Part shown: positions 1 through 8,778 of the stretch, piece after piece
Layout: every line of letters begins with the position of its first letter
Position numbering within the stretch: the first letter of the stretch is position 1
Translations under genes and position numbers: made by a program
Assembly (NCBI GenBank): GCA_030613505.1
Contig: JAUWLW010000077.1
Coordinates: 1-8,778, forward strand
Length of the DNA: 8,778 bases
Reading direction: 5' to 3'
Source: Candidatus Zixiibacteriota bacterium
GTDB taxonomy: Bacteria; RBG-13-66-14; B26-G2; WVWN01
Notes under the pieces: model-generated
What the model saw: only the letters and a program-made list of their open reading frames with translations
Database searches by the model: none
Told to the model about the DNA's origin: nothing

Positions 1-267
1 ACGAAGCCGGCGGCCTTCGCCCTCTACCAGAACGCACCCAACCCCACGCGCGGGAAGACGACGTTCACGTTCTCGCTAACCGCGGCGGGCCCGGGAGAGC
101 TGGCCGTCTACGACCTCGCGGGCCGCGAGGTCTGGCGCCACGAGGGTACTTTCGCCGAGGGCGAAAACAAGCTCAAGGCAACCTTCGATCTGGCACCCGG
201 CGTCTACGTGTACCGCCTCCAGGCCGGCGGTAAGGCCGCGGCGAAGAAGATGGTGGTCGTCAAGTAG
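1..267 (+). CDS. C-terminal part of a secreted protein with a Por-secretion (T9SS type A)-like sorting tail
   Basis: Partial gene; the 5' end lies outside the window. The 88 visible residues match the pattern of type A C-terminal domains: FALYQNAPNPTRGKTTF at residues 6-22, then a beta-rich stretch containing VYDLAGREVW, then GVYVYRLQAGGK and a lysine-rich end, KKMVVVK, before TAG. In Bacteroidetes-type type IX secretion this domain guides export across the outer membrane and is then removed. In other candidate phyla the same fold is often annotated as a FlgD-Ig-like domain without proof of T9SS. The enzymatic or structural part of the protein is not visible, so no function can be given. The stop overlaps the ribosome binding site of the next gene, which suggests co-transcription with it. 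Confidence 0.85.
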   Translation, partial: TKPAAFALYQNAPNPTRGKTTFTFSLTAAGPGELAVYDLAGREVWRHEGTFAEGENKLKATFDLAPGVYVYRLQAGGKAAAKKMVVVK

Positions 268-998: not shown

Positions 999-1808
999 AT
1001 GCGGGCGCTATTAGTATTGATAAATTGCGCTCTCGCGTGTTCCGCGCTAGCGACGTACCCGGGTAGCGTAATATCGTCGTTCTACGCGGCACCGCTTAGG
1101 TACGGAAGCATAACGTACTTCCCGCAAGGCCTAACGTACGGCGGCGGTTACATCTGGGTTATTTACGCCGACGGGATCGTTACCAAACGTCAATTCCCGA
1201 ACGGCTCCATAATCGCGACGTTCGTATGCCCGCCGCCGGCTTGGGGCCACGAACTCGCCTGGGATGCTCGCCGTAAATATCTATATATGACTAGCATGTG
1301 GTCGGGCGTTTACTGGGTGGACCCCACTACGGGTTCCATTATTGGCTCCTTCGACGATCCGCCCGGGGCCGGCCCGTTATGGGGCATAGAATATAACGAC
1401 TATTATGCTGGCCGTCCTATTTGGGTTGGCGATTATCATAAAGTATTTAACCTCAATACCTTGGGGTCCGTAATCAAAAGTTTCGACCTTTCTACGTGGC
1501 CGTACCGGCCTAGGGCCTACGCCTTCGATAGCGATACGTCGGGCGGGCCTTATATCTTCGTCGGAGCGGTACGCCCCGGCGTCTACCCTTGGTTATATGC
1601 AGTCAACCCTGCGGACTTCTCAATCGTAAGCTCTTTTGTTTCGCCTTTATTTCCAAGTAGCTTAGCGGATATTACCTGGGACGGCCAATATTTGTGGGGC
1701 TTAGAAAATTGCGAGACCACCGTCGGGTGGGTTAAACGTTTTGTAGCCTATTCCTCGCCCGCCGTCGCGCCCGCGTCGCTCGGTAAAATAAAAGCACTAT
1801 ACAGGTAA
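999..1808 (+). CDS. Secreted beta-propeller protein with C-terminal GKIKALYR tag
   Basis: Complete 269-residue protein. Residues 1-18 form a signal peptide (hydrophobic core LLVLINCALACSALA, likely cleavage ALA|TY). The mature part is built of roughly 40-residue units that alternate a GS(V/I)I-x-(S/T)F strand with a segment like WDGQYLW; I count about five, as in a small beta-propeller whose N-terminal GSVISSF strand may close the ring. There is no catalytic motif; family resemblance is to lactonase, NHL or glutamine-cyclotransferase-like propellers, too loose for a name. The last 13 residues end in ASLGKIKALYR, almost the same as the end of the paralogue at the right edge of the window. No Shine-Dalgarno sequence precedes the ATG, only TTTTTT, but no other start keeps the signal peptide. 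Its codons are more AT-rich than those of PfpI. Cell-surface or extracellular location is inferred; function is unknown. Confidence 0.85.
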   Translation: MRALLVLINCALACSALATYPGSVISSFYAAPLRYGSITYFPQGLTYGGGYIWVIYADGIVTKRQFPNGSIIATFVCPPPAWGHELAWDARRKYLYMTSMWSGVYWVDPTTGSIIGSFDDPPGAGPLWGIEYNDYYAGRPIWVGDYHKVFNLNTLGSVIKSFDLSTWPYRPRAYAFDSDTSGGPYIFVGAVRPGVYPWLYAVNPADFSIVSSFVSPLFPSSLADITWDGQYLWGLENCETTVGWVKRFVAYSSPAVAPASLGKIKALYR

Positions 1809-6720: not shown

Positions 6721-7722
6721 ATGTTAAGCAAAAAATTCGTACTAGTCGTATGTATTTTTACCACGGCCGTAGCCACCTTAAACCGTTGCGACAATCCCAC
6801 TGGCGAAAATCCGCCCGAACGTTGGAATTACGGGCCTTGGGATTATTATAGATTGAATATTGAAAAAAACACCAAAGTAAGAACGATTTATATGTCTACT
6901 AATGAGAAGGGGTGGGTCGCCATTAGCGGGCCGATATTTTTAGAATATAAACGCGGCGAATGGTTAATCTTTAAGGATTTTAAAAAAGAAAAAGGTAAAA
7001 TAATTGCGCCATATATGAACGACATTGATTTTTCGGAACGCAACGACGGCTGGGCCGTAGGCCATAATTTAACGCCTAGCGAAGGTTTCGTCTTTCATTA
7101 CGACGGGGTCGACTGGGAAGAGGTAACGCCTTATCCTATGCGGCCTCTTTATTGCGTGGCCGCGGTGGCGCCGGACGACGTGTGGGCCGCGGGGTGGTAC
7201 GGCACGATGTACCACTACGACGGCTCGAGCTGGGCCCAAGTCCCGTTCCCGGCCAGCCCCGAAATATGCGCCCTCCACTTCCCGGCCCCTAACGACGGCT
7301 GGGCCGTGGGATATTCCGGTTCGTACTTCCACTACGACGGCAGCGCGTGGGAGCCGGCCCGCGTAAACGACGCCGAGGTCCGGTACGGCGTATTCTTCCC
7401 CACCCCCGACGAGGGCTGGGCCGTAGGAGGGGGCGGCGTGATACCGGAGTACCCCGCCCAATACCCGATATTCCATTACGAGAACGGCGAATGGAAAAAA
7501 ACGTTCCGCGCGCAAATGCGTTTCGAGAGCGTCCACTTCGCCGCGCCCGACGACGGCTGGGCGGCGGGTTCCCACGTCCTCCGGTACGATGGAAAAGAGT
7601 GGCACGTCATCACCCCCCCCGGGAAACTCTACGTTTACGACATCTTCACCCTCGGCGGCGACGACGTTTGGCTCGCCTGCTACCCCGGGACGATATGCAA
7701 GTATAACCCGAATAAAAAATAA
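6721..7722 (+). CDS. Secreted seven-repeat beta-propeller protein
   Basis: 333 residues. The N-terminus MLSKKFVLVVCIFTTAVATLNRC is a signal peptide; Cys23 could be lipidated, but LNRC is a poor lipobox. The mature protein holds seven copies of a (D/E)GW-A-(V/A)-G type core at residues 63, 109, 153, 192, 231, 278 and 315, spaced 37-47 residues, most followed by a FHYDGS-W strand. Seven units match a seven-bladed propeller of the BNR/YCF48-like kind, where such strings report per-blade loops. No catalytic residues are apparent. The ribosome binding site is weak (GAAG about nine bases before the ATG). The first 130-140 codons are strikingly AT-rich and the rest strongly GC-rich, though the repeats run across the change. 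It is divergent from the cysteine desulfurase and has its own terminator. Binding or envelope role is inferred; function is unknown. Confidence 0.85.
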   Translation: MLSKKFVLVVCIFTTAVATLNRCDNPTGENPPERWNYGPWDYYRLNIEKNTKVRTIYMSTNEKGWVAISGPIFLEYKRGEWLIFKDFKKEKGKIIAPYMNDIDFSERNDGWAVGHNLTPSEGFVFHYDGVDWEEVTPYPMRPLYCVAAVAPDDVWAAGWYGTMYHYDGSSWAQVPFPASPEICALHFPAPNDGWAVGYSGSYFHYDGSAWEPARVNDAEVRYGVFFPTPDEGWAVGGGGVIPEYPAQYPIFHYENGEWKKTFRAQMRFESVHFAAPDDGWAAGSHVLRYDGKEWHVITPPGKLYVYDIFTLGGDDVWLACYPGTICKYNPNKK

Positions 7723-8055: not shown

Positions 8056-8778
8056 CTATCTATACAACGCCTTTATCCTACCTACGCTCGCCGGCTTTAC
8101 GCCAATATCCGTAATATACCGCATCTGCAATGCTAAATTTTCTATGACTCCTCCGTCATTATGTATCCCCCAAAGATATTCGCCGTCGTAAGCCAACCCG
8201 GCGGCACCGTAATCGGGAACCGGCCAAGCCGCGCTGTCCAAGATAGAGCCTGTAGTGGTTATACAGTAAACAATAGCTTGCGAATTTAAGCCGTAAGGCC
8301 GGGTAGCGCAAAATAGATACGGGGGACCCGGGTTTTTTACGTACGCAAGTCCATGAGGCCTTTCGAACCCTAAACTGAACGAAGCTACAACGGAACCGCC
8401 GGTATTCAACTTATATATACCTCCTGCCAACGTATCGGCGAAGTATAGAAAACCGCCTTCGTAAGCGAGGCCTGCCCCCCACGTCACGCGCGGGTATGGA
8501 AAACTCCCAACGATGGCGCCGCGGGAAGGATCGAATTTATAAATATGGTAAGTATCCCAAACGTCCGTGGTATAAAGGTAAGTGCCGTCGTAGGCCAAGC
8601 CTCCGGACCAAATTCGGCCAACGCTGTAGGTAGCTACGATCGAACCGCCCGGCGAAATACGTTTCAAGAAGTACCCGTCGACCGTTGTCCAAAGGTACTG
8701 GCCGTCGTGTTCAATACTCGCTGCGTAGAGTGTCCAAGGCCCGCCGGGGTTGAATTTGGGATCGAACGAGGATATAAC
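8056..8778 (-). CDS. Secreted beta-propeller with C-terminal GRIKALYR tag, 5' end outside the window
   Basis: The frame is open from the TAG at 8056 to the window edge, 240 residues. The first visible residues, VISSF, match residues 24-28 of the paralogue at 999-1808, so probably only the signal peptide and a few residues are missing. The TTG at 8667 is internal and not a start. Units of about 40 residues repeat the pattern (H/Y)DG-YLW/Y followed by GS-IVASF: examples are HDGQYLWTTV, YDGTYLYTTD, YEGGFLYFAD and YDGEYLWGIH, giving about five blades. The protein ends KPASVGRIKALYR, matching the paralogue's APASLGKIKALYR. No catalytic motif. It is on the opposite strand to its paralogue, has its own terminator and uses many AT-rich codons. 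Exported location is inferred; ligand and function are unknown. Confidence 0.85.
   Translation of the reverse strand, partial: VISSFDPKFNPGGPWTLYAASIEHDGQYLWTTVDGYFLKRISPGGSIVATYSVGRIWSGGLAYDGTYLYTTDVWDTYHIYKFDPSRGAIVGSFPYPRVTWGAGLAYEGGFLYFADTLAGGIYKLNTGGSVVASFSLGFERPHGLAYVKNPGPPYLFCATRPYGLNSQAIVYCITTTGSILDSAAWPVPDYGAAGLAYDGEYLWGIHNDGGVIENLALQMRYITDIGVKPASVGRIKALYR

Follow-up and report, generated by a model that had tools for sequence, protein, structure and literature searches.

A short C-terminal tail on many Sec-exported proteins of uncultured bacteria, a probable post-Sec sorting signal

Introduction

The type IX secretion signals known from Bacteroidota are domains of ∼75–100 residues. 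PEP-CTERM, GlyGly-CTERM, MYXO-CTERM and LPXTG are short C-terminal tags found on many unrelated exported proteins per genome, and all of them carry a hydrophobic membrane-spanning stretch with a cluster of basic residues after it. Among the type IX signals, type A (PF18962/TIGR04183) is an Ig-like domain of ∼75 residues with a basic and hydrophobic extreme end, carried by varied Sec-exported bodies. Types B (TIGR04131) and C are regions of ∼100 residues with several motifs, which occur as alternative C-terminal signals beside type A. In type A signals, efficient secretion requires the last 13 residues, notably the lysines of motif E, and GFP can be secreted with only the final 22 residues of HBP35 (PMC10202324). 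Genes for type B substrates are often followed by a gene for a SprF-like shuttle (PMC12618676).

Here we describe a tail of ∼14 residues that resembles these signals in position and in the proteins that carry it. The window, 8,778 nucleotides in length, is the whole of one contig (C3) of a 2.86-Mb draft genome of 100 contigs that is 93% complete and is inferred to belong to Candidatus Coatesbacteria. A first-pass annotation of the window had proposed that the C-terminal peptide shared by two of its propeller-like proteins was a candidate sorting or processing tag.

Results

The two tails of the window

The features of the window are listed in Table 1, together with a set of untagged proteins discussed below. 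On re-reading the sequences, the tails APASLGKIKALYR (gcg ccc gcg tcg ctc ggt aaa ata aaa gca cta tac agg taa) and KPASVGRIKALYR (aag ccg gcg agc gta ggt agg ata aag gcg ttg tat aga tag) were identical at 10 of 13 residues, with only the codons GCG, GGT and ATA in common, exactly as had been noted. The two proteins are paralogues with 40% identity across the aligned part and therefore this pair alone cannot show selection on the tail. The earlier inference of selection cannot rest on the pair; it is the genome-wide set described below that shows it.

The first tagged protein had no Pfam or NCBIfam match. Its AF2 model consists of successive beta-strands over residues 33–236 at moderate confidence, with the tail lying beyond the propeller at low pLDDT. 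The second showed a weak resemblance to DUF6923/PQQ_2. A further protein of the window (6721–7722, + strand) is PSII_BNR/Ycf48-like and untagged, with a cysteine near the end of the signal region (ATLNRCDNP); Ycf48-like paralogues elsewhere in the genome are tagged.

Table 1. Features of the window and untagged NHL lipoproteins used for comparison
Feature	Position	Strand	Basis or remark
Last part of a protein bearing a type A sorting domain of type IX secretion (...KKMVVVK)	1–267	+	PF18962, 32.7 bits (cut-off 27 bits)
Propeller-like exported protein, 269 aa, tagged	999–1808	+	ORF; genome-wide paralogues
Predicted Sec signal peptide MRALLVLINCALACSALA-T	999–1055	+	Cleavage site by heuristic only
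C-terminal tag APASLGKIKALYR	1767–1805	+	HMM A2 match 1758–1805, E 1.3e-9; stop codon 1806–1808
Second tagged propeller-like protein	8056–8778	-	ORF; 5′ end lost at contig end
C-terminal tag KPASVGRIKALYR	8059–8097	-	HMM A2 match 8059–8106, E 2.3e-8; stop codon 8056–8058
Untagged NHL lipoproteins	L416:3360, L416:4418, L466:917, L468:6187, L468:12743, L475:996, L477:557		

The tail is conserved at the protein level and in register with the C-terminus

Used as a whole-protein query, the first tagged ORF gave many matches within its own genome, confined to the last 20–25 residues. A 17-column HMM built from 34 tails then gave at least 150 matches in the window genome, with E-values from 1e-10 to 5e-4. 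The ORFs analysed were those from the searches and from DNA stretches around 150 matches, and do not amount to a full proteome count. Nearly all of these 150 matches lie at a stop codon: 144 end within one residue of the profile end and three more within two residues; the few exceptions to the terminal position include ORFs that are extended or that run into a contig end. Of 142 tails that were aligned, 141 have exactly seven residues between an invariant glycine and the stop.

The consensus of ∼14 residues is V-x-P-[ATS]-S-[LVFI or W]-G-x-[VI]-K-A-L-[FY]-[RK]-stop. The window genome has L, V, F or I before the glycine, R or K and then V or I after it, and F or Y followed by R or K before the stop. 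Across 141 tails, the counts at the main positions were V 130, P 140, S 138, G 141, K 128, A 127 and L 127. Synonymous codons varied at nearly every position, with all six serine codons used at one of them, and GC3 was 0.79 in the tails, close to the 0.76 of the bodies. The conservation of the tail is at the level of the protein and in register with the terminus.

The possibility that the tail is a chance or compositional similarity, or the translation of a DNA repeat at gene ends (a terminator or mobile element), draws some support from a few short orphan ORFs that carry it. However, the diversity of synonymous codons, a GC3 like that of the bodies and the constant reading frame all run counter to this, as does the absence of any match to the general HMM in a 7-Mb Pseudomonas genome. 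We consider this explanation refuted, with next to no chance of being correct.

The short orphan ORFs with the tag are 28–36 residues long (C67:14924, C64:5379, C96:59566 and C41:28859 of the window genome) and are probably remnants of frameshifted or decayed tagged genes. In another genome (G002 C12; L159, L164), two paralogues have PTSLGKIKSLF followed by a conserved extension, TPQLEYSGGGGRIGRPAPHRSWMMGLRG, and no stop.

Comparison with described C-terminal signals

Neither NCBIfam nor Pfam holds a model for the tail and the literature searched gave no name for it, in agreement with the initial view that it belongs to no named family. Searches of the literature on the motif, on Coatesbacteria and type IX secretion, and on C-terminal sorting in these phyla found nothing relevant. 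Among the NCBIfam matches listed for 137 tagged proteins, none was to a CTERM or type IX tail model.

Like type A signals, the tail is C-terminal, sits on varied Sec-exported bodies, has a basic and hydrophobic extreme end and is found in the same genome as type A itself. In contrast to type A, it is only ∼14 residues long, does not have the Ig-like fold and lies beyond a closed propeller. No type A model was among the families listed for its carriers, and its consensus PxS[LW]GxIKA is unrelated to type A. With types B and C it shares the role of an alternative C-terminal signal beside type A. A possible likeness to type B in gene order is seen only at two syntenic WOR-3 loci, where a shuttle-family gene comes directly after the tagged gene; that neighbour is PorV2-like, whereas the shuttles of type B are PorP/SprF-like. 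The tail is far shorter than types B and C and matched no model for either, and neither an Ig-like nor a type B domain is present together with it.

The ‘P-S/T-S/T-W’ of the tail superficially recalls PEP-CTERM, and its presence on many unrelated exported proteins per genome is a property of all the short tags. However, it has neither the hydrophobic span nor the subsequent basic cluster of the PEP-CTERM, GlyGly-CTERM, MYXO-CTERM and LPXTG tags; the aligned ends read G-[RK]-[VI]-K-A-L-[FY]-[RK]. The tests made place the tail outside both the type A and the type B family. It probably acts in a similar way, and the results on the last 13 and last 22 residues cited above (PMC10202324) make a short basic tail plausible as a signal.

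The tail is carried by unrelated Sec-exported proteins

The first-pass annotation had named two outcomes that would refute its proposal: confinement of the motif to one paralogous propeller family, and equal frequency in cytosolic proteins. Neither was observed. NHL repeats were found in 36 of 137 carriers, and others include Ycf48-like proteins and further propellers. The non-propeller carriers comprise single cupredoxin, DNRLRE/CBM96, InhA-like MAM and Omp28-like proteins, as well as ThuA-like proteins (named by eye) and orphan folds.

A Sec signal peptide was predicted for 104 of 113 tagged ORFs vs 52 of 138 untagged ORFs drawn from the same DNA stretches (p = 3e-20). The heuristic used was home-made, and the controls probably include some spurious ORFs; the two sets were handled in the same way.

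To our AF2 model of a tagged NHL protein from Coatesbacteria bin961, a member of the window genome's genus, a mean pLDDT of 89.9 was assigned. The propeller is complete, with nearly all of it above 90, while the last 15 residues are below 50 and lie outside the fold. In Foldseek, the propeller aligned over ∼279 of 319 residues to closed NHL propellers. The model of the window protein gave a similar picture with less confidence.

These data bear on the idea that the tail is a structural element of the propeller, a closing strand or capping helix, inherited by paralogy. Most carriers are indeed propellers, counting many propeller-like proteins beside those with NHL repeats. Against this, the tail is also found on the cupredoxin, DNRLRE/CBM96, MAM-like, Omp28-like and ThuA-like proteins, the untagged NHL paralogues end at the last strand, and the modelled propeller is complete without the tail. 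We therefore rejected a structural role in the propeller, which remains only a very slim possibility.

The tail itself was modelled as a short helix of low confidence. An amphipathic helix was considered and set aside: the helical hydrophobic moment was no higher than in shuffled sequences, and so we claim no conformation for the tail.

Among the NHL paralogues, lipoproteins (judged by eye) made up 7 of 16 untagged proteins and 0 of 36 tagged proteins (p = 9e-5). The untagged lipoproteins (Table 1) have a clear lipobox followed by a polar linker, and their chains stop at the last propeller strand. Two lipoproteins on contig C89 depart from this, with degenerate tags, PASLGKVLALFR and PASLGKVLATYY. 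The tag and the lipid anchor look like alternatives.

Further C-terminal variants of the NHL propeller exist besides the tag. A cluster of untagged NHL propellers (L468, C68:26000–44000 of the window genome; L471) ends in ...YFRP(A)AxDDK, and two end in a C-terminal transmembrane segment.

Distribution over genomes and phyla

With the general HMM, the tag was observed in all 14 genomes examined from the window genome's phylum, at 12 to at least 150 copies each. The copy number was 112 to at least 150 within the genus, 72 in the sister family and 12–40 elsewhere in the phylum. Outside the genus, tryptophan is frequent before the glycine, as in PASWGEIKAGFSD and PASWGRIKALYQ.

This W-form was sought in 84,980 species genomes with a DNA pattern for P-[AST]-S-W-G-x-[IV]-K-A-x-[FY]. 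The scan is a sample rather than a census and misses other forms of the tail. The matches listed came almost only from Eisenbacteria, Krumholzibacteriota, Latescibacterota, Coatesbacteria, Delongbacteria, WOR-3, Aegiribacteria/Fermentibacterales and unnamed MAGs; none of those listed was from Bacteroidota. Among 81 occurrences that were read, the distance to a stop codon was at most two residues in 66 and at most nine in 10 more. The remaining long read-throughs (e.g. in Pseudomonas and Pantoea) look like chance hits. A C-terminal tag is present in Eisenbacteria, Krumholzibacteriota, Latescibacterota, Delongbacteria, WOR-3 and relatives of Fermentibacteria.

On a 125-kb contig of Gemmatimonadaceae COS4_bin_9 (L349), tagged paralogues from a single small family (HIGDQIYPFYELLDEDLDRIDLTDGSVEDWLE...) stand in an array. 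This points to local duplication in a genome of the Gemmatimonadota, possibly following transfer.

Type IX machinery beside the tag

The window genome has 33 type A tails, SprA (TIGR04189, 313 bits against a cut-off of 200) and ten PorV-family matches. As a whole-protein query against PDB sequences, its SprA gave no match. With 33 type A tails beside at least 150 tags, the genome does hold two C-terminal signals, as the first reading of the window had supposed it might.

In a survey that included G004, G006 and others, with low scorers re-tested, SprA (SprA_N or TIGR04189) was present in every tested genome with more than one tag match at threshold, and also in Delongbacteria and WOR-3 genomes with a single tag. 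Four genomes lacked it, each with either no tag match or a single one presumed to be due to chance (Pseudomonas, Pantoea, Acidimicrobiia and a Syntrophobacterales MAG). This evidence is correlative, and the co-occurrence is confounded by shared ancestry. The converse does not hold: Calditrichaeota J004 has SprA and 21 PorV-family matches without the tag, and the presence of type IX therefore need not mean that the tag is there as well.

Gene neighbourhoods were less uniform. In two WOR-3 genomes, the sole detected tagged gene, which is lamin-tail-like (named by eye), directly precedes a PorV2-like gene (NF052325, E 4e-33). The adjacency is suggestive given the order of type B genes and SprF-like shuttles (PMC12618676). 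However, the surroundings are conserved between the two loci, which therefore represent one syntenic event, and a tagged gene adjoined a PorV-family gene at only these 2 of 80 loci scanned and not at the other 78. We therefore rejected this arrangement as a general rule. The same applies to sprA: a tagged NHL gene is its divergent neighbour in the window genome and in G004, and this was absent from the sprA neighbourhoods read in other genomes. With about one tagged gene per 19 kb, the adjacency in those two genomes is weak evidence.

When NHL homologues in other genomes were examined for a swap between the tag and a type A tail, they mostly had last-strand ends or were unrelated ORFs.

Two other arrangements were seen. 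Downstream of sprA in the window genus lie two ExbB/TolQ-like genes and two that are ExbD-like (L413:8856–11359, on C76 of the window genome; L414:11048 onward; L415), which might be the energy source of its type IX system. One gene downstream of a tagged NHL protein on C83, a PorV-family barrel is fused to TPR repeats (L416:1443–3218).

Discussion

The tail has at least 150 copies in a single genome, on unrelated bodies and in association with Sec signals, and has held up as a candidate sorting tag. We conclude that it is very probably a new, undescribed short C-terminal signal for sorting after Sec export.

We lean, by a little, towards the type IX system as the likeliest reader of the tail; there is no direct evidence that type IX handles it. 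In the mechanism we propose, the tail follows complete domains in proteins whose way out of the cytoplasm is Sec. Sec would export the tagged precursor and signal peptidase I would remove the N-terminal signal. The free tail may then be bound in the periplasm by the type IX system, inferred here to be the SprA translocon with a shuttle of the PorV/PorQ family, and the protein moved to or through the outer membrane. Recognition by type IX, the identity of the shuttle and the final location are all inferences. The genome's larger type A domains would take a parallel route.

Alternatively, an unknown machine independent of type IX could read the tail as a signal for sorting or anchoring, either with docking of the secreted protein to an outer-membrane receptor, S-layer or LPS, or with cleavage by a dedicated peptidase. 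The lack of resemblance to any known type IX C-terminal domain is in keeping with this, as is the apparent exchange of tag for lipid anchor. The copy numbers of the two signals are also uncoupled, with ∼22–33 type A tails vs 112 to at least 150 tags in the genus and 31–58 vs 22–40 in family f5, and the Calditrichaeota genome shows that type IX can be present where the tag is not. On the other hand, no genome with more than one tag match at threshold lacked SprA, in WOR-3 the gene directly after the tagged one is of a shuttle family, and no candidate machine was found. We regard a type IX-independent reader as possible without favouring it. A bolder proposal, which we make tentatively and at odds somewhat below even, is that the tail is a minimal export address without a domain of its own, read by an unrecognised outer-membrane machine or a specialised PorV-family shuttle, and that this address serves a large part of the surface proteome in several uncultured phyla.

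The tag occurs on ∼150 proteins in a genome of 2.9 Mb, and dozens of proteins in related phyla carry it too. As a sorting signal, it marks exported proteins with a common destination. The lineages that bear it are uncultured and most of the tagged proteins are unnamed. If type IX handles the tag, it would be a minimal signal for this system outside Bacteroidota; if type IX does not, the tag would point to an export route that is missing from current lists.
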